Origin: Deltaproteobacteria bacterium
GTDB lineage: Bacteria; Desulfobacterota; Binatia; UBA9968
Length of the DNA: 64,000 bases
Assembly (NCBI GenBank): GCA_016874755.1
Contig: VGTH01000020.1
Coordinates: forward strand, 1-64,000
Direction: 5' to 3'
The position numbers were made by a program, and so were the translations under genes. The notes below the pieces were generated by a model that was not told the origin of the DNA, searched no databases, and was given only the letters and a program-made list of their open reading frames with translations. Positions 15,290-30,092 of this stretch are shown piece after piece; position 1 is the stretch's first letter; the number at the start of each line of letters is the position of its first letter.

Positions 15290-16267
15290 ATGTCGGCAAT
15301 CTTCATCAGCTATCGCCGCGACGACAGCGCGCCCTATGCCGGGCGTCTTTACGATCGTCTATGCGCCCGCTTCGGCGCCGATCGTGTTTTCATGGACGTT
15401 GACGGCATCCCGCCGGGCGTCGATTTTGTCGCGCACATCGGCGCCAAGGTCGCATCCTGTGACACCATGATCGCGGTCATCGGCAAAAAGTGGTTGGAGG
15501 CGCGGGACGGTAACGGGCAGCGGCGCTTGGACGATCCGCATGATTTCGTCGTGCTCGAAGTCGCGCAAGGATTGCAGCGCGGCATTCCCGTAATCCCCGT
15601 GCTAGTCGGCGGCGCGAGTATGCCCAGGGCAGCCGATCTTCCAGACCCGCTGCGTGGCTTGGCCCAGCGCGAAGCGGTGAGTTTGCGCGACGATGAGTTC
15701 CATCGCGACGCCAACACGTTGATTACCGTGTTGGCCAAGCTTCCAGGACTGCAACGGCGCTCGACGGACAAGATAGACCCTCGGCAAGAACGGCTGCAGC
15801 GTCATACAAAGGCGCTTATCTGGAAGGCGCCGTTGGTCTTTGCGCTCGTCGCCTTTGCCATCTGGTGGCAAGGGCGCCGGGAATCGCAGCGGCCCGCACC
15901 GATTACGACCCACGCCGCGATAGCGCAGCCGTTGACCGGCGCGTGGGGTGCCGAAGTGACTTATCACTGGAACGCCAAACATAAAGAGGCGTTTTTCTTT
16001 CAACCGGAGGGCAATCGACTCTACGGCACGGCGAGCTTTCTCGGCCTCAAACGCGGCATCGATGACGGCAAGATTGAGGGCGGTGAGATTTTCTTCAGCG
16101 TGCGGTTTCAGGAGGATTCCGCGTCGGGGACGCGCGAGCGCAAAAACTACTATGGCGGCAAAATCGCCGGCAACGAGATTCGTTTCCGGCTGCAGGACGA
16201 TCGCGGCAGTCCACCCCTGGAGTTTATCGCCACTCGTGTGGGTGAAGCGGGCCAGACTTTGCGCTAG
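15290..16267 (+). CDS. TIR-domain membrane protein
   Basis: 325 residues. Residues 1-150 form a TIR domain: IFISYRRDD at the first strand, VFMDVDGIPPG in the BB-loop region, a CDTMIAVIGKKW strand and FVVLEVAQGLQ carrying Glu90, the likely catalytic residue of NADase-type TIRs. A transmembrane helix lies at about 180-194. The C-terminal part (215-317) is a predicted all-beta, lipocalin-like domain (LTGAWGAEVTY, RLYGTASF, NYYGGKIAGNEIRF). Inference: a cell-surface or periplasmic sensor domain signals across the membrane to a cytoplasmic TIR that may cleave NAD. It is followed after 95 bp by a sensor-like TPR protein and then a patatin lipase. No strong ribosome site is visible. Confidence 0.8.
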   Translation: MSAIFISYRRDDSAPYAGRLYDRLCARFGADRVFMDVDGIPPGVDFVAHIGAKVASCDTMIAVIGKKWLEARDGNGQRRLDDPHDFVVLEVAQGLQRGIPVIPVLVGGASMPRAADLPDPLRGLAQREAVSLRDDEFHRDANTLITVLAKLPGLQRRSTDKIDPRQERLQRHTKALIWKAPLVFALVAFAIWWQGRRESQRPAPITTHAAIAQPLTGAWGAEVTYHWNAKHKEAFFFQPEGNRLYGTASFLGLKRGIDDGKIEGGEIFFSVRFQEDSASGTRERKNYYGGKIAGNEIRFRLQDDRGSPPLEFIATRVGEAGQTLR

Positions 16268-16362
16268 GGTGGCTCCTAGCAGGAAGCAATGGAACGATCG
16301 CAATACATGGCGGCTGACACCCGTTAGTTCGTTAACGCTATGCTGCAGGAGCAATAGTTACC

Positions 16363-18351
16363 ATGGCCTATCACGCTTTTGTTGCGATGCCGTTCGGTAT
16401 CAAGGAGCGGTTCGACGCCAATGGCGCCAAAGAGCAGATCGACTTCAACAAAGTCTACAGCGATCTGATCAGGCCGGCTTTGGAAAGCGCGGGTTTTACG
16501 GTGTTTCGCGCCGACGAAGAACGGAGCGCCGGCAATATTCGCACCGATATGTTTCAGGAATTGCTGCTGGCCGACCTGGTCGTCGCCGACTTGTCGATCG
16601 ACAATCCCAATGTTTGGTACGAGCTGGGCGTGCGCCACGCCTTGCGCCGCCGCGGTGTGATTCAGATTACCTGCCGCAGCGGGCCGACACCGTTTGACGT
16701 CTATACCGATCGGTCGTTGCGTTATCACATCAAGGCTGGCGCGGATAATCGCTTGGCGCCGGATCCGGATTTCGTCGAGATTGATAGAAAAGAAATCCGT
16801 GAATTTGCCGCGCAGACGATCAACTCCTGGTACGGCCGCAAGGTCAGTCCCGTGTATCATTTATTGCGCTATCTGCAGGAACCCGACTGGAAATCTTTGC
16901 GGGTCGAGGAAGCCCGCCAATTCTGGGAAGACTATGATCGCTATACGACCCGGATCGAAGTCGCGCGCAAGCGCCAGAAGCCCGGCGATATTCTAGTCTA
17001 TGCCGAGGAAGCGCCGACGCGCGTCTTTCGCGTTGAGACCTTTCAGGTTGCCGGCAGAGCCTTGCTGTCTTTAGGCCAGTTTCGTTTTGCCTTGGCGCAG
17101 TATGAAAACGCCCTCACTATCAAGCCCAATGATCTGGAGAGCCGGCGGCAGAAGGGGTTGTTGCTGGGCCGTCTGAAAAAGCATGATGAAGCCAAGGAAT
17201 GGGTCGAAACCGTACTGCGCGATTTTCCCGACGATGCCGAGAGTTGGGCGCTTTTGGGGCGAGTGGAGAAGGAAAACTGGGTCGACTTGTGGCGCAAAGA
17301 CGGCAAGAGCTCTGAGCAAATGCGCAAAGACGCGGGCGATGACGAAGCCTTGCTGCGTGAAGCGGTGAACGCCTACGCGACCGGCTATCGCAAAGATCCC
17401 AGCCATTTTTATTCCGGTATCAACGCGATCACGTTGCTCCACCTCCAAGCGCACCTAACCGGCAAACAAGAGCGTCTGGATGTGCGCAAAGAAATGGAAG
17501 GCGGCGTGCGTTGGGCGGTGCGCGGCGCCCTGGAGAAAGACCCCAAAGACTACTGGGCACGAGTTACCTTGGCTGAGTTGGAAGTCCTAGAGAGCGATAG
17601 CCCAATCGTTCAAAGTGCCTATCGCAGCGCCGTTGCGGTGGCGGAAAAAGACTGGTTCAAGTTGGTCTCTTCGCGCGATCAGTTGCACTTGCTGCAGGAC
17701 CTCGGTTTTCGCGCGGAGGCGGTAAAAACCGGTTTGAAGACTTTGGAGCGCGCGTTGAGCCGCATCACGGCGCCGGAGAAGGCCTGGGCACCGCGCCAAG
17801 TATTTCTTTTTAGTGGACACATGGTCGATGCCCCGGATCGTCCGCAGCCGCGCTTCCCGCCCGGCCAAGAAGCCGTCGCCGCGCAGGCAATTGCCGCGAA
17901 GCTGGCTGAGCTCGGCGCCGGTCCGGACGACATCGCGATTTGCGGCGGCGCTTGCGGCGGCGATCTGCTTTTCGCCGAAGCCTGCGTCGCGCGCGGGCTG
18001 CGTGTCGAGCTGCGCCTGGCTTATGATGAACCGACGTTCATCAAGCATTCGGTGGCATTTGCCGGCGACGCCTGGGTGGAGCGTTTTTACAAAGTGAAAG
18101 CACAGCCGAAAACCGCTGTCTTGATTATGGCCGATGAGCTTGGAGCTGTGCCCAAGGATGTTAACCACTACTCGCGCACCAATCTCTGGCAGCTCTATAG
18201 CGCACTCGCCTGGGGGCCGGAGAAAGTTCGCTTTGTCTGCCTGTGGAATCGCAAGGGCGGCGACGGTCCGGGCGGCACCGAGCATATGCACGACACGGTG
18301 CAGAGCTACTCGGGGCGGGTCCACGTGCTCGATACGACGAAGCTTTGGTAG
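16363..18351 (+). CDS. Deoxyribosyltransferase-like / TPR / SLOG-like protein
   Basis: 662 residues with three modules. Residues 1-150 carry FVAMPFG, FTVFRADEERSAGNIRTD and VVADLSIDNPNVWYELGVR; the last matches the catalytic Asn-Glu motif (Glu87) of nucleoside 2-deoxyribosyltransferase and related TIR-like domains. Residues 220-465 contain TPR-like helical repeats of the type seen in TRAFs-binding (DUF4071) proteins. Residues 478-662 look like a Rossmann SLOG-like domain, with FLFSGHMVD and the glycine motif CGGACGGDLLFAEA. SLOG, deoxyribosyltransferase and TPR modules are known parts of nucleotide-centred conflict systems. AGGAG precedes the ATG. The patatin gene starts 13 bp downstream, so the two are almost certainly co-translated. 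The arrangement as a whole is not one I know. Confidence 0.75.
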   Translation: MAYHAFVAMPFGIKERFDANGAKEQIDFNKVYSDLIRPALESAGFTVFRADEERSAGNIRTDMFQELLLADLVVADLSIDNPNVWYELGVRHALRRRGVIQITCRSGPTPFDVYTDRSLRYHIKAGADNRLAPDPDFVEIDRKEIREFAAQTINSWYGRKVSPVYHLLRYLQEPDWKSLRVEEARQFWEDYDRYTTRIEVARKRQKPGDILVYAEEAPTRVFRVETFQVAGRALLSLGQFRFALAQYENALTIKPNDLESRRQKGLLLGRLKKHDEAKEWVETVLRDFPDDAESWALLGRVEKENWVDLWRKDGKSSEQMRKDAGDDEALLREAVNAYATGYRKDPSHFYSGINAITLLHLQAHLTGKQERLDVRKEMEGGVRWAVRGALEKDPKDYWARVTLAELEVLESDSPIVQSAYRSAVAVAEKDWFKLVSSRDQLHLLQDLGFRAEAVKTGLKTLERALSRITAPEKAWAPRQVFLFSGHMVDAPDRPQPRFPPGQEAVAAQAIAAKLAELGAGPDDIAICGGACGGDLLFAEACVARGLRVELRLAYDEPTFIKHSVAFAGDAWVERFYKVKAQPKTAVLIMADELGAVPKDVNHYSRTNLWQLYSALAWGPEKVRFVCLWNRKGGDGPGGTEHMHDTVQSYSGRVHVLDTTKLW

Positions 18352-18364
18352 TCGAGGAATCGAT

Positions 18365-19477
18365 ATGAGTCTTGCAGACAGAATCGCAGCCAAAGGTCCA
18401 AAGAAAATACTCGCCCTCGACGGCGGCGGTATTCGCGGCATCCTAACGGTCGAGATTCTAGCTGAAATCGAACGGTTGCTGCGCCAGAGGGCGGGCGGGC
18501 AAGCCGACTTCGTGCTTGCCGATTATTTTGATTTCTTTGCCGGCACGAGCACCGGCGCGATTATCGCGGCCTGTCTTTCTTGGGGCATGACGGTGGGCAA
18601 AGTGCGCCAGTTTTATCTCGACAACGGCAAGGAGATGTTCGACAAGGCATCGCTCCTGCGGCGCCATCGTTACAAGTTTGAAGACGAAAAACTGTCCAAT
18701 CGCCTGAGAGAAGAATTCGGCGCCGACACAACTCTCGGTACGGATAAGCTGCGCAGTTTGCTTATGTGCGTGATGCGCAATGCCAGCACGGATTCGCCGT
18801 GGCCGGTCTCCAACAACCCGCATGCGAAATACAACAATCGCAGTCGACAGGATTGCAACTTGAACCTGCCACTCTGGCAACTGATTCGCGCGAGTACCGC
18901 GGCGCCGACCTATTTTCCGCCAGAGGTAGTGCAGATCGGTGACAAGGAGTTTATCTTCGTCGACGGCGGCATCACCATGTACAACAATCCAGCGTTTCAG
19001 GCGTTCCTCATGGCAACCGTCGAGCCTTACAACATAGATTGGCCCACCGGCGCAGACAAAACGTTGATCGTTTCAGTCGGCACTGGCACCAGCCCGGACG
19101 CGAACAAGGATCTGAAGCCCGAAGAAATGAATCTACTTTACAACGCCGGCTCCATACCGTCGGCTCTGATGTCTGCAGCGTTGAACGAACAAGACTTTCT
19201 CTGTCGCGTGTTCGGCAACTGCTTGGCGGGTGGTCCGCTGGACCGCGAAATCGGTGACATGATCGGCAAGCGCGGACCGGTCAAAGACAAACTGTTTACC
19301 TATATGCGTTTCAACGCGGAATTGACGCGCAGCGGGCTCGATACACTTGGGCTAAATGACATTGAACCGAAAAACGTCCAGCAATTGGATTCCATTGAAT
19401 TTATTCCAGACTTGCAGCGCGTGGGCCAAGCCGTCGCAGCACAAAAAGTAAAAGCGGAGCATTTCAGTGGATTCTAA
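18365..19477 (+). CDS. Patatin-like phospholipase
   Basis: 370 residues of the patatin family of Ser-Asp lipid acyl hydrolases. The oxyanion loop DGGGIRG is at residues 19-25, the nucleophile Ser62 lies in GTSTG (60-64), RASTAAPTYFPP spans 175-186, and the catalytic Asp200 lies in DGGITMYNN. Similar patatins are effectors in anti-phage systems such as CBASS (CapV), where they degrade the membrane of infected cells, but no CD-NTase gene lies nearby. The ATG at 18365 is preceded by GAGG; the open frame extends further upstream but overlaps the previous gene. It sits in a tight unit with the sensor-like gene and 2.1 kb downstream of the TIR gene. Confidence 0.85.
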   Translation: MSLADRIAAKGPKKILALDGGGIRGILTVEILAEIERLLRQRAGGQADFVLADYFDFFAGTSTGAIIAACLSWGMTVGKVRQFYLDNGKEMFDKASLLRRHRYKFEDEKLSNRLREEFGADTTLGTDKLRSLLMCVMRNASTDSPWPVSNNPHAKYNNRSRQDCNLNLPLWQLIRASTAAPTYFPPEVVQIGDKEFIFVDGGITMYNNPAFQAFLMATVEPYNIDWPTGADKTLIVSVGTGTSPDANKDLKPEEMNLLYNAGSIPSALMSAALNEQDFLCRVFGNCLAGGPLDREIGDMIGKRGPVKDKLFTYMRFNAELTRSGLDTLGLNDIEPKNVQQLDSIEFIPDLQRVGQAVAAQKVKAEHFSGF

Positions 19478-21939: not shown

Positions 21940-22353
21940 GTGAATCCAAGTGCGCCGCCGGAATTATCGTTGGAGCAGATCGCGGTTGAGCCGCGTGAAA
22001 TCGCTGGCGAGTGGCGTGTGACTTTTCGTGTGGTTAATCGTGGGGCAGGACGACTAGAAATCGACGCCGCGCGCCTGCCGCATGGGCAGTTCAAGTCGGA
22101 AAATATTCGCTTCGCCCGACCGCTGCTGCTCGATGCTCAAGCCGATGCTAACTTCACAGCAGAAGTTCACTGTAAAGAACCGCCGGGGTTGGTGACGGAG
22201 AATGCCTTCGTGCTTCTGTACGTTCGGTACCTGGGTGAAAGCTGGCGCATTTTCGTTCGTGTTCGGGTCGTGGTGGATAAAAATGGTTTGCCGGATAGCG
22301 CGGTGGAGTCCATCACCGTGCAACAAGTCGGATTTTCCGGAGTGGCGACATGA
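21940..22353 (+). CDS. Beta-rich hypothetical protein
   Basis: 137 residues from a GTG start 2 bp after the preceding stop. Alternating hydrophobic strands (WRVTFRVVNRG, RLEIDAARLPHG, FVLLYVRYLG, WRIFVRVRVVVD) suggest an immunoglobulin-like or CARDB-like beta sandwich. No signal peptide is present. I do not recognise a named family. Its stop overlaps the next ATG (ATGA at 22350), so it is translationally coupled to the candidate selenoprotein and to the enolase-family gene upstream. A structural or substrate-binding partner role is inference from position only. Confidence 0.6.
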   Translation: MNPSAPPELSLEQIAVEPREIAGEWRVTFRVVNRGAGRLEIDAARLPHGQFKSENIRFARPLLLDAQADANFTAEVHCKEPPGLVTENAFVLLYVRYLGESWRIFVRVRVVVDKNGLPDSAVESITVQQVGFSGVAT

Positions 22354-22568
22354 GCAAAGAAGACGATCTCTACATTCTCAAACGCATGCGCGGCTGACAC
22401 AGCAATTGAGGCCTGGGCTTCGAAGAGACCACGGGCATGGTCTCCAACGCTGTTAGAAAGTCACAAGACGAAGTCGTCGCGGCGTTAAAGCGCCTGCGCG
22501 CCAATCACAGCGACGACGCGGAATACAAGGGATTGCGAAGAGATTTGCCGAAGGAATGGCCGATCTGA
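22350..22568 (+). CDS. Candidate selenoprotein with two in-frame TGA codons
   Basis: An ATG overlapping the upstream stop (ATGA) opens a 73-codon frame that begins MSKEDDLYILKRMRG, meets TGA at 22395-22397 and again at 22407-22409 (a U-x3-U arrangement), then continues GLGFEETTGMVSNAVRKS to KEWPI and a final TGA at 22566. Codons on both sides of the TGAs show the high third-position GC of neighbouring genes, so the whole stretch looks coding. A perfect 7-bp hairpin with loop CGGGCA begins 15 nt after the second TGA, within the range expected of a bacterial SECIS. A C-x3-C ancestor would make a redox or metal site. The alternative is a small pseudogene with two nonsense codons. I do not recognise the family, and no sel genes lie in this window. 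Confidence 0.5.
22425..22444 (+). promoter_or_regulatory. SECIS-like hairpin
   Basis: GAGACCA (22425-22431) pairs perfectly with TGGTCTC (22438-22444) around the 6-nt loop CGGGCA. The loop starts 22 nt after the second TGA and 34 nt after the first; both are within the spacing usually accepted for bacterial SECIS (about 16-37 nt). It has a G in the first two loop positions. One hairpin could therefore serve both codons. The stem is short, so this remains a prediction. Confidence 0.45.
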
Positions 22569-22790: not shown

Positions 22791-23546
22791 CTACGAACGC
22801 AGCCGCACTTGAGGTTGACGTAGATTCAGGTTGGCGACCCCGCCCCAAAACTCCCGCTTGCCAGTCATCGCCTGCACGTGGCCGTCCCATTCGAGGGTGA
22901 ACGCAGTCAATCCCAGTTTGACCGCGGCGCGGATTTTGTTCTGTGTCACCTCGTCGGTGGCAAGTTGGCGAATCGCGGCGATTTGCCGGCTGCCGTGGCC
23001 TTCGTCCTGGGCGGCGTGCAACTGGTACGTCGCCGCGGCGCGTGGGGAAAATTTGTAGAACTCGGTCAGCTCGCGATACACTTTTTCGGAAATCTTTCCC
23101 GCACCGCCCAGTTGGCTTTCGACAAAGGCGAGCATGGCGACGCCTTCCAAAGCTGAGCGTCGCTGGCAGCAGCCGATGATCATTTCGATCGCCGCCAGCG
23201 TGCCTGGCGCCGGCTCGGCATTGTCCGCTGCTTCGCGCGTGATGCCGCCTTCTTCGAGAAACTGCAGCATGATGTCGACATGCGTGCGCTTGCCGCCGAG
23301 CTCTTCCATGAAATTTTCCAGCACGGTTTCCATGACAGCGTATTCTTTGGCGGATACGGCGTTGATCGCCATGTAACCAAAGAAAATCGGGTTGGTGCGC
23401 ACGCGCAGGTAGTGCTGCACCTCGCCAAGAATAATCTGCTCCTTGCGCCAGCGATGCTTGATGATGCCGTCGAACCAGGGGTGCTGCTCCATCGGCACTT
23501 CGGCGGCGTAGGACCAGAGTTCTTCGATGAATCGATCTTGGGTCAT
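22791..23546 (-). CDS. Heme-oxygenase-fold (PqqC/TENA-like) metalloprotein
   Basis: About 251 residues. The helical pattern and motifs QHPWFDGIIKHRW, QIILGEVQHYLRV, MEELGGKRTHVDIML and HAAQDEGHGSRQ fit the PqqC/TENA/heme-oxygenase-like diiron oxygenase superfamily. The Glu and His residues in GEVQHY and DEGHG are candidate metal ligands. Members oxidise small molecules or act in cofactor synthesis; a specific reaction cannot be given. The start is the ATG at 23546, preceded by GGGAGG; the open frame extends about 30 codons further but without a ribosome site. The amidohydrolase upstream is on the same strand but separated by a clear terminator. Confidence 0.7.
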   Translation of the reverse strand: MTQDRFIEELWSYAAEVPMEQHPWFDGIIKHRWRKEQIILGEVQHYLRVRTNPIFFGYMAINAVSAKEYAVMETVLENFMEELGGKRTHVDIMLQFLEEGGITREAADNAEPAPGTLAAIEMIIGCCQRRSALEGVAMLAFVESQLGGAGKISEKVYRELTEFYKFSPRAAATYQLHAAQDEGHGSRQIAAIRQLATDEVTQNKIRAAVKLGLTAFTLEWDGHVQAMTGKREFWGGVANLNLRQPQVRLRS

Positions 23547-23583
23547 GGCGTGCCTCCCTTGGTGCCAGCTTAGTCGTTTCGCG

Positions 23584-24842: not shown

Positions 24843-25802
24843 TTAAGTAGTTCTCGTGTTCTCGGTGAACAGCTCTTCTACTTTTAGTTTCCGTCCGAGC
24901 ATGCCCTGCTGGTCGGCGAATTTGATTAGGTTCTCGACGTCATTATAGTTCTCTTTGAGGCCCTGGTAGAACGGGTCCTTGCCGAAGAATTTACGCTCTT
25001 CTTCGAGATAGGATCTGCCCCAGGCGAAGCTCAGCCGATGGGGCTGCTCCATGAAATCGTTGTACGCTCTGCGCGAGGCGAGCAGCGCCTCGTATAAACT
25101 CGTTGCCACCCAGGGATCGCGGTCGAGGATTTCTTTTTTGATCACCACCGGGTGCATGATCGGGAAAATGCCCGTCTTTTTATAATAAGCGCGTTCTTCT
25201 TGCTCGAATTCTGGAAATAGCCGTTGCACGCTGCCTTCGCCGCGGATCCAGCGGCGCGGTAAATCCGGCTCCACTTCGGCGTCGACTTTGCCTTCGACTA
25301 GCAGGTCTTCGAGCTTGCGATTGCCTTCGACGAACTCGACTTTGATGTGCGGCGGCAGTTTGAAGCCGACGTGCTCCTTATTCACGATCACCCACGTGAC
25401 GTCGCCGACGCCCAGGTCATAGCTGTTCATCAGCATGCCCTTGGTGACCAATGCTAGCGTGTTCTCGTAACTCCGCAGACCGATGCGGCCGCCTTTGAGA
25501 TCGGAAGGTTTCTTGACGCCCGAACCGGTTTTGATGAAGCAGAACTTGTGGCCCCACATGCGTCTTGGGAAAAACGGGATGGCTTGCAGCCGGTCGATGT
25601 CCTGACCACGCGCGACTAAATAAGACGACATGGAAAACTCGCAGGCGTCGTACTCGCCATGGTGGAACATGCGCTCGTGGCGGATACCACTTTCGACGGT
25701 GATGACGTTCAAGTCGAGTCCTTCGGCTTCGACGGTGCCGTCTTTCAGCGGCTGCAAATAGTCATACTTGTCGAAGGCGATGGTGAGTTTTAGTTTAGCC
25801 AT
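24843..25802 (-). CDS. 4,5-dihydroxyphthalate decarboxylase-like protein
   Basis: 319 residues. It opens LKLTIAFDKYDYLQPLKDG and continues EAEGLDLNVI, GIRHERMFHHGEYDACEFSMSSYL and RMWGHKFCFIKTG-SGVKKPSDLKGG, all typical of proteins annotated as 4,5-dihydroxyphthalate decarboxylase (Pht5-like). These have a periplasmic-binding-protein type II fold. There is no signal peptide from the ATG at 25802, which follows AGAGGA, so the protein is probably cytoplasmic. It may be a phthalate-type decarboxylase or a solute-binding relative. It lies 11 bp from a truncated binding-protein gene and next to an intact one, which supports an aromatic-acid context. Confidence 0.75.
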   Translation of the reverse strand: MAKLKLTIAFDKYDYLQPLKDGTVEAEGLDLNVITVESGIRHERMFHHGEYDACEFSMSSYLVARGQDIDRLQAIPFFPRRMWGHKFCFIKTGSGVKKPSDLKGGRIGLRSYENTLALVTKGMLMNSYDLGVGDVTWVIVNKEHVGFKLPPHIKVEFVEGNRKLEDLLVEGKVDAEVEPDLPRRWIRGEGSVQRLFPEFEQEERAYYKKTGIFPIMHPVVIKKEILDRDPWVATSLYEALLASRRAYNDFMEQPHRLSFAWGRSYLEEERKFFGKDPFYQGLKENYNDVENLIKFADQQGMLGRKLKVEELFTENTRTT

Positions 25803-25813
25803 GTTGGTTCCTC

Positions 25814-26068
25814 TTATAGTTTTTTGCCGAAGACGCGATCGATGAAGCCACGCAGCATGCCTTGCACCAGCACGCCGCCGCCTTGCACGTAGACCAACGT
25901 GGCGTCGATGCCGTGCTTTTTCAGAAAGCCCATATCGCGGGGGACCCACAACGCCGTGTTGTTGAGCGTCATGGTCGAGTAGGCGAGGTAGCTTTCCTTG
26001 CTCGAACTGGGGCTGGAAAAGGATAGCGTGAAGGCAAAAGCACAGATAGCCAGAGCGAATTTCGTCAT
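25814..26068 (-). pseudogene. Internally deleted ABC substrate-binding protein
   Basis: An 84-residue frame has a signal peptide (MTKFALAIC...SSS) and the first domain start of an NMT1-like binding protein: YLAYSTMTLNNTALWVPRDMGFLKKHGIDATLVYVQGG. After GGGVLVQGML it goes straight to RGFIDRVFGKKL, which looks like the C-terminal end of such a protein. About 230 residues are missing, so an in-frame internal deletion is the simplest reading. It is unlikely to bind ligand. Its upstream neighbour is an intact binding protein ending 31 bp away. Confidence 0.6.
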
Positions 26069-26099
26069 GGCGCGATCATAAAAGCGCGCTAGCGCGCTG

Positions 26100-27053
26100 T
26101 CAACGAACTTGGCCCTTCTGCAGCAGCTCTTCGACCAGCGTCGCATCGGCCACTTGGGTCCACGGAATGGTGGCCGCGCCTTCGGAGTCGAGAATGGCGC
26201 GCACGGCGTCGGCAGTGACGCGCAGGTCGTCGATGATCAACGGGGCGTAGACGTTGTAAGATTCCACCGCTGTTGCCTCATCGGTGCCGAAGAACTGCCG
26301 CATGAACTGCACCGCTTCGCTTTTCTGAGTCTTGATCCAGCGCATGGCCTCCATTTGGGCCAGGATCATGCGTTTGATCGACTCGCGCTCGCGCTGAATC
26401 TTCGCAGTTGTCGTTGACAAACCGGTGAAGGGAATGTGCAGCACGTCGCCGGCGCTGCCGAGAAAGCGATAGCCCTGCTGCTTGGCCAAAACGGAATGGG
26501 GCAGGGATAGCGTCGCCGCGTCCATCTGCCCAGAGAGCAGCGATTGAAAGCGCGTTTCGGAAGCGCCGACGGAGAGCATGGCGACGTCCCGGCGCGGATC
26601 GAGCCCGGCCTTTTGCAAGAGCGCGCGGGCGACCAACTCGTCGGTGGCGCCGACATTGGAGATGGCGATCTTCTTGCCTTTTAACTCAACGAGGGATTTG
26701 TAGCTGCCGCGCGCCACCAGAGTATGAAATGACGATTTCAAGCCGATGGTGACGAGCTTCAGCGGCAAGCCCTTCACCGCCGAGCGGATCACCGTGCTTG
26801 TCATCATCGAGTAATCGATCTCGCCTGCTTGCACGGCGACCACCGACAGGTTGGGGCGAATCGTGATCACTTCGGAGTCGAAGCCCTGTTTGCGGAAGAA
26901 GCCCTTTTCGTGGGCCGCCCAGACGTCGAAGAACCCGATCGATTTAGACGACACGCCGATGCGGACGCGCTCGCGCGGCCGCTCCGCGGCGAGCGACGAA
27001 GTCGCGACAAGCAGCAAGACAAGGGACAGAGAAAAGCACCTTCGCTGATTCAT
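26100..27053 (-). CDS. ABC transporter substrate-binding protein
   Basis: 317 residues. A signal peptide (residues 1-22, ending SLAA) precedes an NMT1/SsuA-type body: VRIGVSSKSIGFFDVWAAHEKGFFRKQGFDSEVI, an AGEIDYSMM pocket strand, LKGKKIAISNVGATDEL, and a C-terminal VADATLVEELLQKGQVR. The fold is the periplasmic binding protein type II; ligand unknown. It heads a minus-strand cluster with a deleted paralogue and a Pht5-like gene, so aromatic carboxylate uptake is a reasonable guess. No transport ATPase or permease gene is linked. Ribosome site weak. Confidence 0.8.
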   Translation of the reverse strand: MNQRRCFSLSLVLLLVATSSLAAERPRERVRIGVSSKSIGFFDVWAAHEKGFFRKQGFDSEVITIRPNLSVVAVQAGEIDYSMMTSTVIRSAVKGLPLKLVTIGLKSSFHTLVARGSYKSLVELKGKKIAISNVGATDELVARALLQKAGLDPRRDVAMLSVGASETRFQSLLSGQMDAATLSLPHSVLAKQQGYRFLGSAGDVLHIPFTGLSTTTAKIQRERESIKRMILAQMEAMRWIKTQKSEAVQFMRQFFGTDEATAVESYNVYAPLIIDDLRVTADAVRAILDSEGAATIPWTQVADATLVEELLQKGQVR

Positions 27054-27177
27054 AACCCAAGAAAGTAGCAGGGGTTGCGGCCCGTGTCGATTGGGGCGTG
27101 CTCACATTTGCTCACATTGACACGCCAACGACGCAGGTGCTAAGGGAAAACCACCTTCACAGTGAAAGGAGTGTATT

Positions 27178-27924
27178 ATGCGATTCCAAAACAAGTCGGT
27201 CATCATCACGGGTGGCGGCGGCAAGATCGGCAAAGCCTACGCGATGGGGTTCGCCAAAGAGGGAGCGAAAGTCGCGCTGCCGGACATCGCCAGCGCCGAT
27301 CACGTCGTCAAAGCGATCAAAGATATGGGCGGCACGGCGATCAGCATGGCCTGCGACGTGTCGGACGAGAAGAGCGTCAAGGCAATGGTCGATCAGGTGG
27401 CCAAAGAGTTCGGCAGCGTCGATGTGCTCGTCAACAACGCTGCGTATTTTATGACGGTTAAGAAAAGCGTGTTCTGGGAAATGGAAGTCGACGAATTCGA
27501 CAAAGGCATGGCCGTCAACGTGCGCGGATCGTGGCTCTGCGCCAAAGCGGCATTCCCACATATGAAGCAAGCGGGCAAAGGCAAAATCATCAATATCTCT
27601 TCGGGGACTGCTTTGAATGGCGGCCAGAACTACATTCACTACGTGACCTCAAAAGGGGCGTTGATCGCCATGACGCGGGCGATGGCGAAAGAGTTAGGCG
27701 ACTACAACATTTGCGTGAATACGGTGGCGCCGGGGTTTGTCGTCACCGAAGGACGTGCGGTGGACGCAGCGTTTAACGCCAGCCGCGTCGCCAATCGGGC
27801 GTTGAAGCGCGTCCAGGTGGAGAACGACTTGGTCGGCACCGTGATGTTTCTCGCCTCGTCCGAGAGCGATTTTATGACTGGGCAATTGTTGAACGTCGAC
27901 GGTGGGGCGCATTTTGTGGGGTAG
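27178..27924 (+). CDS. SDR-family oxidoreductase
   Basis: 248 residues of the classical short-chain dehydrogenase/reductase family. The nucleotide-binding motif TGGGGKIG lies near residues 11-18, followed by NNAA at about 90, the catalytic Ser in NISSGT and the Tyr-Lys pair in YVTSK near residue 160, and the PGFV segment after it. It lacks the Asp after strand 2 in a clear position for strict NAD preference (LPDIAS is present, which favours NAD). It oxidises an alcohol or reduces a ketone. AAAGGAG precedes the ATG, and a weak TTGACA box lies at 27117-27122. The likely role is oxidation of a ring alcohol or hydroxy acid in a catabolic route. Confidence 0.9.
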   Translation: MRFQNKSVIITGGGGKIGKAYAMGFAKEGAKVALPDIASADHVVKAIKDMGGTAISMACDVSDEKSVKAMVDQVAKEFGSVDVLVNNAAYFMTVKKSVFWEMEVDEFDKGMAVNVRGSWLCAKAAFPHMKQAGKGKIINISSGTALNGGQNYIHYVTSKGALIAMTRAMAKELGDYNICVNTVAPGFVVTEGRAVDAAFNASRVANRALKRVQVENDLVGTVMFLASSESDFMTGQLLNVDGGAHFVG

Positions 27925-27946
27925 AATAGTTTAGGCATGTTTTGTT

Positions 27947-28032
27947 CCCCCCTTTGAAAAAAGCGGGGCTAGGGGGGATTTGCGAATAGGTGCAAAAGAA
28001 AATCCCCCTCGGTGCCGCTTTTTCAAAAGGGG
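27947..28032. repeat. Complementary-arm repeat (CCCCTTTGAAAAA type)
   Basis: CCCCCTTTGAAAAAAGCGGGGC at the left and GCCGCTTTTTCAAAAGGGG at the right are near-perfect complements, with an inner AGGGGGGATTT / AAATCCCCCT pair. The whole 86 bp can fold as one hairpin between the SDR gene and the binding-protein tandem. Confidence 0.75.
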
Positions 28033-28055
28033 AAGTTGAAATCTTGCTGAGGTAA

Positions 28056-29066
28056 GTGATGCTTTTTTGGGCGAAGAAAGAGTTCTTGCTGTTGGGTATT
28101 CTTGTAATTGCCACCCCTTGTTTTTTGGTTTCGCCGGCCTCGGCGCAGAAGCTCACCATCGCTTGGACTTCGGTGAGCGCGTTTAACTCACCGTTTTGGA
28201 TCATGCCGGACGCGGGGTTTTATAAGCAGGAAGGGATGGACGTCGACACGCTGTTCATTCTCAGTTCGCCGACGGCGGCGAAGGCGACGCTGGCGGGGGA
28301 TATTTCGATCAGCTCACAGAACAGTCAGGTGGTATCGGACTCCGGTTTGGCGGGTGGCGACCTGGTCGCCATGGGAGCGGTGGTCAATATGGTGCCGTTT
28401 TACATCATGTCGATTCCTGAGGTGAGAACCGTTGCTGACCTCAAGGGGAAGTCGGTCGGTATTTCTCGCTTTGGCGCTGCCTCAGATTTTGGCACCCGGA
28501 TGTTTCTGGGCAAGCACGGCCTGGAGGCCGGCAAGGATGTGCCGTTCATACAGATCGGCGGGCAGCCCGAGATTGCGGTGGCCCTGTCGAAGAAACTGAT
28601 CGCCGCCGCGGCGATGTCGCAGCCGTCGGCGGCTGTGGCCGAGCAACAGGGCGCGCGGCTATTGGCCAATATGGTGAAGGATGAGATCCCTTTTGTGCAC
28701 CTGGCGATCACCACGACTAAGAGATTCCTGAAAGAAAAAAGACCGCAAGCGAAGGCGTTCCTGCGCGCCTATGCCCGTTCGATGCATTTTCTTTACAACC
28801 GCAAAGAAGAAACCTTGGCGATTATTCAGAAGTACACTAAAGTGAAGGACCCGAAGATTCTCGACGCCACGCTCAAATATGGCTATGAGTTCATGGAAAA
28901 AATCCCACTCGTCAAGCCCGCCGGCTTTCAAGTCACTCTCGATGAGATTGCGCGGACCAATCCGAAAGCCAAACAATTTAAGCCAGCGCAGTTCTACGAC
29001 AACAGCGTGGTGCAGGAGTTGGTGGATGAGGGGTTCTTCACCAAGCTTTGGGGGAAAGCGCCTTGA
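28056..29066 (+). CDS. ABC substrate-binding protein (tandem copy 1)
   Basis: 336 residues. A signal peptide ends near SPASAQ (residue 30). The mature protein begins KLTIAWTSVSAFNSPFWIMPDAGFYKQEGMDVD and ends VVQELVDEGFFTKLWGKAP. It is an NMT1-type binding protein very similar along its whole length to the next gene (shared SDFG, KDV-FIQIGG-PEIA, AMSQP and FLKEKR blocks), so the pair arose by tandem duplication. GAGG precedes the ATG. Downstream come two ornithine-cyclodeaminase-like genes and a third binding protein, all co-directional, suggesting that ligand and enzyme substrate are related, perhaps an amino-acid-like compound. Confidence 0.83.
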   Translation: MMLFWAKKEFLLLGILVIATPCFLVSPASAQKLTIAWTSVSAFNSPFWIMPDAGFYKQEGMDVDTLFILSSPTAAKATLAGDISISSQNSQVVSDSGLAGGDLVAMGAVVNMVPFYIMSIPEVRTVADLKGKSVGISRFGAASDFGTRMFLGKHGLEAGKDVPFIQIGGQPEIAVALSKKLIAAAAMSQPSAAVAEQQGARLLANMVKDEIPFVHLAITTTKRFLKEKRPQAKAFLRAYARSMHFLYNRKEETLAIIQKYTKVKDPKILDATLKYGYEFMEKIPLVKPAGFQVTLDEIARTNPKAKQFKPAQFYDNSVVQELVDEGFFTKLWGKAP

Positions 29067-29099
29067 CGGAAGATGAATGGGTGTTGGAGTAGTGGAGTG

Positions 29100-30092
29100 A
29101 TGGGATTTCGGACGATATTCGCCTGGTCGGTGATTTTCTTTGCTGGGCTTTGGTCGACGCCCGCCGATGCGCAGAAGCTGATTGCCGCGTGGTCGTCGGT
29201 GAGTGCGGTGAACTCGCCGCTTTGGATCATGCACGACGCGGGCTTCTTCAAGCAGGAAGGTCTCGATGTCGATCTGATTTTCGTCCTCAGCTCACCGACC
29301 GTGGCGAAAGCGACGCTCGCGGGCGAGGTCGCCGTTTCTGGCGCCAACAGCCAGGTGGTGGTCGACTCGGGTTTGGCCGGCGCCGATTTGATTGCCATGG
29401 GCGCGATGTCGAACGTCGTGGCGTTTTACATCATGGGCAACCCCGATATTAAAACCGTTGCCGATCTGCGCGGCAAAACCGTCGGTATCACCCGTTTCGG
29501 GTCGTCGAGCGATTTTGGCATGCGCATGCTGCTCGCCAAGCATGGGCTTGAGGCCAACAAAGATGTCGCTTTCGTGCAGATCGGCGGCATGCCGGAGATT
29601 GCCGCGGCGTTGTCGAAGAAGATCATTGCCGCGGCGCCGATGTCGCAGCCCATGGCCTACGTGGCGGAGCAAGGCGGAGCCAAGGTTTTGGCTAATCTCG
29701 CGAGCGAAGAAGTGCCGTTCATGCACATGGGCTTTACCACCACGCGCAAGTTTTTGAAAGAAAAACGCAGCCAAGCGAAGGCGATGATCCGTGCCTACGG
29801 CCGCGCGCTGCACTTTCTACACACGCGCAGGGAGCAGACCCGAGCCATCTTCGCGCGCTACACCAAGATCAACGACGTGGGCATGCTCGACGGCAGCATC
29901 AAGTACGGCCAAGATTTTCTTGAAAAGATTCCGTTTGTGAAACCTGCGGCGTTTCAGGTGACGCTCGATGAAGTCGCGCGGAGCAACCCCAAAGCCAAAC
30001 AGGCCAAGCCGCAGCAATTTTACGATAACAGTTTGGTTCAAGAAGTGGTCGACGAGGGGTTTTTCACCAAACTGTGGGGGCGTGGCCTTTAG
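29100..30092 (+). CDS. ABC substrate-binding protein (tandem copy 2)
   Basis: 330 residues, with a signal peptide ending TPADAQ and a mature start KLIAAWSSVSAVNSPLWIMHDAGFFKQEGLDVD. It is a close paralogue of the 28056 gene. The C-terminus LVQEVVDEGFFTKLWGRGL is nearly the same. The ATG at 29100 gives a standard signal peptide; an in-frame ATG at 29073 would add nine residues before it. The gap to the first copy is about 33 bp. Ligand specificity may have diverged: pocket residues differ at MGAMSN/MGAVVN and PMSQP/AMSQP. The next gene is an ornithine-cyclodeaminase homologue. Confidence 0.83.
   Translation: MGFRTIFAWSVIFFAGLWSTPADAQKLIAAWSSVSAVNSPLWIMHDAGFFKQEGLDVDLIFVLSSPTVAKATLAGEVAVSGANSQVVVDSGLAGADLIAMGAMSNVVAFYIMGNPDIKTVADLRGKTVGITRFGSSSDFGMRMLLAKHGLEANKDVAFVQIGGMPEIAAALSKKIIAAAPMSQPMAYVAEQGGAKVLANLASEEVPFMHMGFTTTRKFLKEKRSQAKAMIRAYGRALHFLHTRREQTRAIFARYTKINDVGMLDGSIKYGQDFLEKIPFVKPAAFQVTLDEVARSNPKAKQAKPQQFYDNSLVQEVVDEGFFTKLWGRGL

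Follow-up and report, generated by a model that had tools for sequence, protein, structure and literature searches.

Can a gene that is interrupted by two UGA codons be read through to its end, and what would its product do? This question is raised by a tiny gene in a 64,000-nucleotide stretch of DNA (contig VGTH01000020.1 of a Deltaproteobacteria bacterium, GTDB class Binatia), the whole of which we call the window. A sequence-only reading had described a frame that begins at an ATG overlapping the preceding stop, passes two in-frame TGAs and remains coding-like to 22568, and had interpreted it as a selenoprotein. We use the name SEL for the product of 22350-22568 (+). The ATG at 22350 does overlap the TGA stop of the upstream gene (22351-22353), the in-frame TGAs at 22395 and 22407 are confirmed, and the next in-frame stop is the TGA at 22566-22568. 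With TGA translated as selenocysteine (Sec, U), the product is MSKEDDLYILKRMRG-U-HSN-U-GLGFEETTGMVSNAVRKSQDEVVAALKRLRANHSDDAEYKGLRRDLPKEWPI; after the second Sec it begins GLGFEETTGMVSN, and its C-terminal end is DLPKEWPI. The two Sec residues, at codons 16 and 20, have the spacing U-x3-U, with the UGAs 12 nt apart. Ordinary gene callers would stop SEL at codon 15. The features of the locus are as follows.

21940-22353, + strand: c1, the upstream partner, 137 aa, a predicted beta-sandwich
22350-22568, + strand: SEL, almost certainly a selenoprotein gene, 72 aa, with its stop TGA at 22566-22568
22395-22397, + strand: UGA1, codon 16, putative selenocysteine; UGA in 57/58 distinct aligned sequences and TGT in 1/58, with Cys in the additional locus L107
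22407-22409, + strand: UGA2, codon 20, putative selenocysteine; UGA in 57/58 and TGT in 1/58, with UGA in the additional loci L107 and L111
22408-22421, + strand: hairpin 1, stem 22408-22412/22417-22421, presumed role in recoding
22425-22444, + strand: hairpin 2, the predicted SECIS element, stem 22425-22431/22438-22444 (GAGACCA/TGGTCTC), loop CGGGCA at 22432-22437
22791-23552, - strand: c0, the convergent partner, 253 aa, a predicted heme-oxygenase-like dimetal oxidase (HDO) related to CADD/BesC

Both UGA codons are conserved among SEL homologues

In a protein search, the SEL frame matched 24 of 39 related genomes, and 23 of these 24 carry exactly two in-frame TGAs. The exception is a fragment at the edge of a contig (L009/L041, on the same contig) that lacks the N-terminal half and contains one TAG, which counts against the selenoprotein reading. 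Matches were confined to the window's order (24/33 genomes, as against 0/6 for other members of the class). We also scanned named genome contigs with one short peptide pattern, at one genome per species (84,980 species by the tool's description), and found that 65 stretches matched, 59 of which were confirmed as SEL loci; more divergent Cys families elsewhere could fall outside such a one-pattern scan. By our own labelling of the record titles, 21 of the 59 loci come from records with Binatia-type, Deltaproteobacteria or similar labels, and the other 38 from Chloroflexi records, which include SAR202 and Dehalococcoidia. The Sec site is covered in 58 of the 59 loci: 57 have TGA/TGA and one (L043) has TGT/TGT. 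Similarly, the 58 distinct aligned sequences, drawn from two phyla, comprise 57 UGA/UGA forms and one Cys/Cys form.

Whole-genome searches extended this set. Among 400 Chloroflexota genomes 19 matched, one of them through a weak, stop-containing match (L112), and within one Chloroflexota class SEL matches were present in 5 of 393 genomes. These searches newly gave L103 and L104 (both UGA/UGA), L107 (Cys at the first position, UGA at the second) and L111 (a divergent UGA/UGA form). L107 and L111 lie outside the pattern of the first alignment, and were added for the 60-sequence pairing analysis below. A draw of 395 genomes from the window's phylum, which held few members of its order, gave a match only in the window's own genome, and none of seven pattern matches in viral contigs was confirmed as SEL. 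We left L041 (no N-terminal half) and L112 (E 2e-4, TAG) out of the counts, and L090, which runs into a contig end, out of the length counts.

Together, these searches recovered homologues with Sec or Cys at both positions: 57 of 58 are UGA/UGA and one is Cys/Cys, with one further Cys/UGA sequence. The equivalence of Cys to Sec in SEL is thus seen in two genomes, those of L043 and L107. The latter gene (L107 1501-1710, - strand) is a natural Cys/UGA intermediate in which both hairpins are kept. The weak match at L112 1501-1635 reads GCRNDC and contains the TAG; it is perhaps a decayed Cys form, or a chance match.

The frame beyond the UGAs behaves as coding sequence, as had been claimed. The stretch between a conserved Phe and the C-terminal residue spans 49 codons in 58/58 sequences (the window and 57 loci), with no frame shift and no insertion or deletion after the UGAs across the two phyla. 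Downstream of hairpin 2, variation at the three codon positions is 0.426/0.315/0.548, the third being the highest, as in coding DNA.

The host carries the selenocysteine machinery

We found selA, selB, selC and selD, the genes whose presence the sequence-only reading had asked for, all over cut-off in the window's genome (G000): selA scores 522.7 bits, selB 411.4 and selD 381.7, with selDBA side by side on contig C16, and tRNA-Sec scores 75.9 bits on contig C40. In the selD-selB-selA row (G000:C16:6375-10462), selD itself contains one in-frame TGA, so that the products of this genome probably include two or more selenoproteins.

Among the 24 relatives with SEL, selB was over cut-off in 21 and tRNA-Sec in 21. 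Three genomes (G010, G014 and G023) have UGA-type SEL and no selB over cut-off. Their Sec sets are partial: G010 has a partial selA, G014 has tRNA-Sec, and G023 has tRNA-Sec and selA. Two of the three are in hundreds of contigs, and assembly gaps may explain the missing selB. In G014 (210 contigs, 96% complete) selA and selD are likewise not over cut-off, a pattern that fits the loss of one selDBA contig. A further 13 relatives have selB without SEL, indicating that a genome can keep the machinery without SEL.

In 12 genomes chosen from the 38 Chloroflexi loci, selB was over cut-off in 11 of the 11 with the UGA form and not in the Cys/Cys genome. The latter (L043) also gave no selA match, and its selD match, at 59.4 bits, falls short of the cut-off of 125. 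Both selA and selD are present in G803, the Cys/UGA genome. Both observations on which the sequence-only reading had staked its interpretation, Sec or Cys homologues and the Sec machinery, thus came out in its favour, and we conclude from the comparison of sequences that SEL is almost certainly a selenoprotein.

Two conserved hairpins follow the UGA codons

The hairpin described by the sequence-only reading is real: hairpin 2 has a 7-bp stem, and its loop starts 22 nt after the second TGA and 34 nt after the first. Its pattern occurs at one place in the window, against a chance expectation of 0.07. The bacterial SECIS model set out in the available portion of PMC13188914 calls for a loop of 3-9 nt, a stem of 4-16 bp, a G in the first two loop positions, a distance of 16-37 nt from the UGA and an MFE <= -7.5 kcal/mol. 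Hairpin 2 agrees with that model for both UGAs, with a 6-nt loop, G at loop position 2, 7 bp, distances of 22 and 34 nt and -10.2 kcal/mol. Because both UGAs fall within 16-37 nt, SelB on hairpin 2 could in principle serve both.

We found a second hairpin, absent from the earlier description. Hairpin 1 begins 10 nt after UGA1 and holds the last two bases of UGA2, and so must open before UGA2 is read. The folding energy of the window sequence alone is unimpressive (z = -1.49), and the case for a SECIS element therefore rests on the comparative test; Rfam gave no match in the window at gathering thresholds. In an alignment of 60 sequences, 99.8% of the cells of hairpin 2 and 87.9% of those of hairpin 1 are paired. 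The four pairs of the inner core of hairpin 1 (columns 26-29 with 36-39) each hold in at least 59 of the 60 sequences and are broken only in the Cys/Cys variant, and its innermost pair (30-35) is formed in 45/60, as C-G, G-C or U-A.

Covariation of the pairs is thin. In the 60 sequences, 3 of 14 pairs have a change on both sides, a value reached by 3/500 shuffles; there are 8 double-change cells (0/500 shuffles) and 7 further pair types (33/500 shuffles). As a control, we slid the alignment. A slide of +1 gave more double-change cells (16) than the true alignment (8), and slides of +1 and +2 gave covariation of 0.075 and 0.072, compared to 0.071 for the true alignment, with only 45.2% and 39.3% of cells paired. 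The first 58 sequences, without L107 and L111, contain one pair with a double change, which 331/500 shuffles reach; RNAalifold on these sequences returned a covariation term of -0.25, with a double change in none of its 12 pairs. The stronger 60-sequence result depends on the addition of L111, in which pair 44-61 of hairpin 2 changes from A-U to C-G with pairing kept, and in which one outer pair is lost. The double change in L111 replaces Glu26 with Ser and Ser32 with Ala, both residues being invariant in 44 aligned members.

The codons that form the stems are held constant at their synonymous positions. In the 58 sequences the paired wobble bases are fixed in TTC of hairpin 1 (58/58) and in GAG and ACC of hairpin 2 (58/58 each); GTC is kept in 57/58, and the lone GTT is in the Cys/Cys variant. 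The G at loop position 2 is the wobble G of ACG, and is fixed in 53/53 Thr codons. Synonymous variation is accordingly 0.00 for TTC, GAG, ACC and ACG and 0.03 for GTC, as against 0.38-0.71 for conserved downstream codons. The wobble positions beside the stem vary (Glu25, 0.49; Ser32, 0.59), as does the variable loop position, Gly29 (0.48); the Gly codon before UGA1 has a value of 0.19. The codon after UGA2, which lies in hairpin 1, is AGN or GGN in 57/57 UGA rows: Ser is AGY in 29/29 and Arg is AGR in 7/7, TCN and CGN never occur, and the Cys/Cys variant has CAC. A third, closing helix (ACAGC/GCUGU) was rejected, with 55.9% of cells paired in the 58 sequences and 198/500 shuffles reaching that value.

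We propose that SelB carrying Sec-tRNA would bind hairpin 2 and decode both UGA16 and UGA20. Hairpin 1, around UGA2 and just past UGA1, probably assists the first recoding event, and might do so by positioning or slowing the ribosome at UGA1. Alternatively, hairpin 1 may act as a first SECIS where its loop has an early G, as in CGGTGA; the loop of the window's own hairpin 1 does not follow this rule and lies 15 nt beyond UGA1. According to the available portion of PMC4513850, the efficiency of recoding at a single UGA in E. coli is 30-40%; at that efficiency tandem UGAs would be costly, unless the SEL element is efficient.

SEL belongs to a conserved module with c1 and an HDO

The neighbours of SEL are conserved as well. 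Directly upstream of SEL we found c1 in 51 of 58 loci with room for it, and c0 lies next to SEL in convergent orientation in 54 of 57 loci with room; the HMMs used to count c1 and c0 were each built from 24 of the same loci. L065 and L068 have c0 downstream in the same orientation as SEL, and L043, the Cys/Cys variant, has it 5.7 kb away. For the four further loci, c0 is nearby in two (adjacent in L111, and about 1.2 kb off in L107, where the end of the sequence cuts it short), whereas L103 and L104 gave no c0 match within about 1.5 kb; c1 is nearby in three (L103, L104 and L107). Among the 39 relatives, SEL is present in 24, c0 in 25 and c1 in 22. The extra c0 is that of G002, which has the HDO and in which SEL was not found, and the two missing c1 genes (G003 and G013) are at contig ends. 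Besides c1, c0, and c2 and c3 at the place of c0, each of the neighbour clusters is limited to at most 9 of 60 loci. The arrangement is kept in both the Binatia-type and the Chloroflexi group, and this conservation speaks for a joint role of SEL, c1 and the HDO.

A large c18 gene lies directly upstream of SEL in L051, L052, L057, L064 and L090; beyond c18 there is a c1-cluster ORF in L052, L057, L064 and L090, and none was placed in L051.

The c1 protein matches no Pfam, NCBIfam or PHROGs family, and a PDB sequence search gave no match up to E 5. Its AlphaFold model (pLDDT 93.2) has as its best Foldseek match the archaeal Fusexin1 (E 3.8e-4, TM 0.38), with three rows at or below 0.001, and as its best VIA match ApaG (Z 10.1, 9% identity). 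These matches to the predicted model say little about function.

We assign c0 to the HDO superfamily on the strength of its sequence: it scores 64.6 bits with PF14518, over the cut-off of 28.9, and matches CADD (1rcw) at E 6.1e-13. The six putative 3H/3C ligands, E114, H121, E175, H209, D213 and H216 (numbering of the 283-aa ORF), are invariant in 24/24 aligned c0 proteins, and all six align with those of CADD. In this, c0 resembles the self-sacrificing p-aminobenzoate (pABA) synthases CADD and NePabS (TIGR04305), to which it is homologous. Unlike them, it scores only 56.7 bits with TIGR04305 against a cut-off of 200, and we rejected it as a CADD-type pABA synthase. The sacrificed residues of CADD are Tyr27 and Lys152, according to the available portions of PMC13108848 and PMC11965152. 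In c0 these are replaced by Phe and Val, each kept in 22/24 c0 proteins (the Val beside an alignment gap), and self-sacrificing chemistry is therefore not expected.

Elsewhere in the window, three consecutive genes at 15290-19477 (+) encode a TIR-domain protein (PF13676), a TPR-S sensor-like protein (PF20308) and a patatin-like phospholipase, the last of which matches PADLOC effector models (best E 1.6e-46); they form a candidate anti-phage defence cluster. Several substrate-binding-protein-like genes, which we take by eye to be of NMT1 type, lie at 24843-30092, and their families (c5 and c20) also occur near SEL in relatives.

SEL is predicted to be a small helical protein without a recognised family

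AlphaFold2, run on 44 sequences with Cys in place of Sec, predicted four helices (3-20, 24-35, 39-53 and 57-65) with a mean pLDDT of 88.6 and a pTM of 0.73. Residues 16 and 20 are on helix 3-20 of this model, one turn apart, and, with the exception of L107, no full SEL member seen mixes Sec and Cys at these positions. The paired redox or metal site suggested by the sequence-only reading would fit such a model.

We searched for relatives of the protein by sequence and by predicted structure. With 44 SEL members, Pfam gave no credible match (best E 0.024, for one member), and the best NCBIfam values were E 0.0024 (TIGR03960, four members) and 0.0079 (four members); these marginal matches are scattered over unrelated families. 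PHROGs gave none for the window's SEL protein, the SEL profile found nothing better than E 0.83 among PDB sequences, and Foldseek with the SEL model gave nothing below E 0.001. A second look with VIA-align, at the Foldseek matches only, returned helix-turn-helix (HTH) proteins at Z 5-6, MntR and OxyR among them. None of these structural neighbours is convincing: helices are commonly arranged in this way, the best Z scores (8.9 and 7.8) belong to designed proteins and, by the tool's own warning, values below about 13 are common for helical models.

Discussion

Comparative sequence evidence supports the decoding of two UGAs, the SECIS element, the equivalence of Cys and the conservation of the module. 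It is very likely that both UGAs of SEL are decoded as Sec and that the resulting selenoprotein works with the c1-c0 module. The chemistry of this module is one that we infer, and the fold of SEL is a predicted one. Among the roles considered, we place a redox function first, a soft-metal site next and a role as HDO substrate third, with a regulator as a further possibility.

The leading idea, held tentatively and at somewhat less than an even chance, is that SEL is a redox partner of the HDO. SEL would be a small four-helix protein whose two Sec residues might join as a diselenide or jointly hold one soft metal ion. As a reversible two-electron centre serving the HDO c0, the pair would deliver electrons to the dimetal site, or reduce the HDO product or peroxide by-products, and c1 may be a docking or substrate-binding partner. 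Against this, HDOs studied to date reportedly need no protein effector, as stated in the available portion of PMC13108848. Against the module itself we count the distant HDO of L043, the failure to find it within about 1.5 kb of SEL in L103 and L104, and the HDO without SEL in G002.

A less likely possibility is that U-x3-U binds a soft metal such as Cu(I) or Hg(II), with SEL as a metallochaperone or sink that perhaps loads or protects the HDO. The two positions are i and i+4 on one predicted helix, L107 alone among full members mixes Sec and Cys, the acidic E25 and E26 are close in sequence, and C-x3-C motifs occur in copper proteins. Yet E26 is Ser in L111, SEL has no sequence match or confident fold match to a metallochaperone, and no neighbour cluster beyond c0-c3 recurs in more than 9/60 loci, although those clusters could include metal genes.

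It is improbable, if conceivable, that SEL is itself the substrate, a ribosomal peptide whose Sec residues or their neighbours are oxidised by the HDO, c1 serving for recognition. The grouping of a short protein with a modifying oxidase and one more small protein would resemble clusters of that kind. HDOs in ribosomal peptide modification are mentioned in the available portion of PMC13108848, and Table 1 of PMC13188914, as far as available, includes a selenobacteriocin family. Several features of SEL and its surroundings speak against a substrate: SEL is conserved along its whole length and has a predicted fold with good confidence, and genes that by eye are transporter- or peptidase-like are neighbours only in some loci (c10 in 6/60, c17 in 5/60). 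Leader-core precursors are unlike such a fully conserved, well-folded protein.

The HTH proteins among the VIA-align matches, including MntR and OxyR, would suit a redox-sensing DNA-binding regulator of the module; with nothing below E 0.001 in Foldseek and designed proteins as the best-scoring neighbours, we consider this role decidedly improbable. Finally, the TAG-containing fragment and the single-sequence fold (z = -1.49) could be taken to mean that SEL is not a selenoprotein and that its UGAs are ordinary stops, marks of a decayed gene, a readthrough switch or reassigned codons, an explanation with hardly any probability left, as it is contradicted by UGA conservation, coding past the UGAs, hairpin pairing, the use of UGA as the gene's own terminal stop, the replacement of the inner UGAs by Cys and not Trp, the full set of Sec genes in the host, and the fact that none of selA, selB and selD is over cut-off in the genome with the Cys/Cys variant.

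The suggestion that the family may be new has held up: there is no credible Pfam or NCBIfam match, and the available portion of the table of known families prints no counterpart. Table 1 of PMC13188914 (2026; 119 families/subfamilies), in that portion, contains no printed U-x3-U and no matching description, with some rows printing no motif. In the open-licence literature (titles and abstract starts) we found no paper on such a family, and none joining selenoproteins with SAR202, heme oxygenase-like proteins or UXXXU; a single paper, on methane cycling in sponges, was listed for Binatota together with selenocysteine. Judging from database matches and printed motifs, we rate SEL as a new family. 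The two-Sec families given in the available portion of PMC13188914 include TsoB (UxxxxU), NF041115 (UxxU), FmdB-like (UxxU), MbdU and UXX-star. Like these, SEL has an in-frame UGA pair and a SECIS inside the coding region, and several of them are small redox or metal proteins; unlike them as described there, SEL has U-x3-U, an HDO neighbour and only two Cys-bearing members found. Its recoding signal, too, resembles the published bacterial SECIS consensus, as far as available, in being a stem-loop downstream of the UGA with a G in the first two loop positions at 16-37 nt, and differs from it in that two UGAs lie at a suitable distance from hairpin 2, one of them (UGA2) being enclosed by a further conserved hairpin.

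In its fullest form, which we offer as a doubtful though possible reading, SEL would be the first dedicated selenoprotein partner of an HDO, powering or protecting it; its two-hairpin signal would make UGA2 part of the recoding structure of UGA1, and the family would have evolved as Sec/Sec and not from a widespread Cys family. Surveys for selenoproteins depend largely on Cys homologues, and a family such as SEL, with only two Cys-bearing members found, would be expected to escape them. SEL adds a paired Sec site, U-x3-U, without a recognised family, and provides a compact natural setting in which to study how a single SECIS serves two UGAs 12 nt apart. Through it, selenium is tied to the HDO superfamily in lineages without cultures (Binatia, SAR202 and other Chloroflexota), and a gene cluster that had no function becomes testable.
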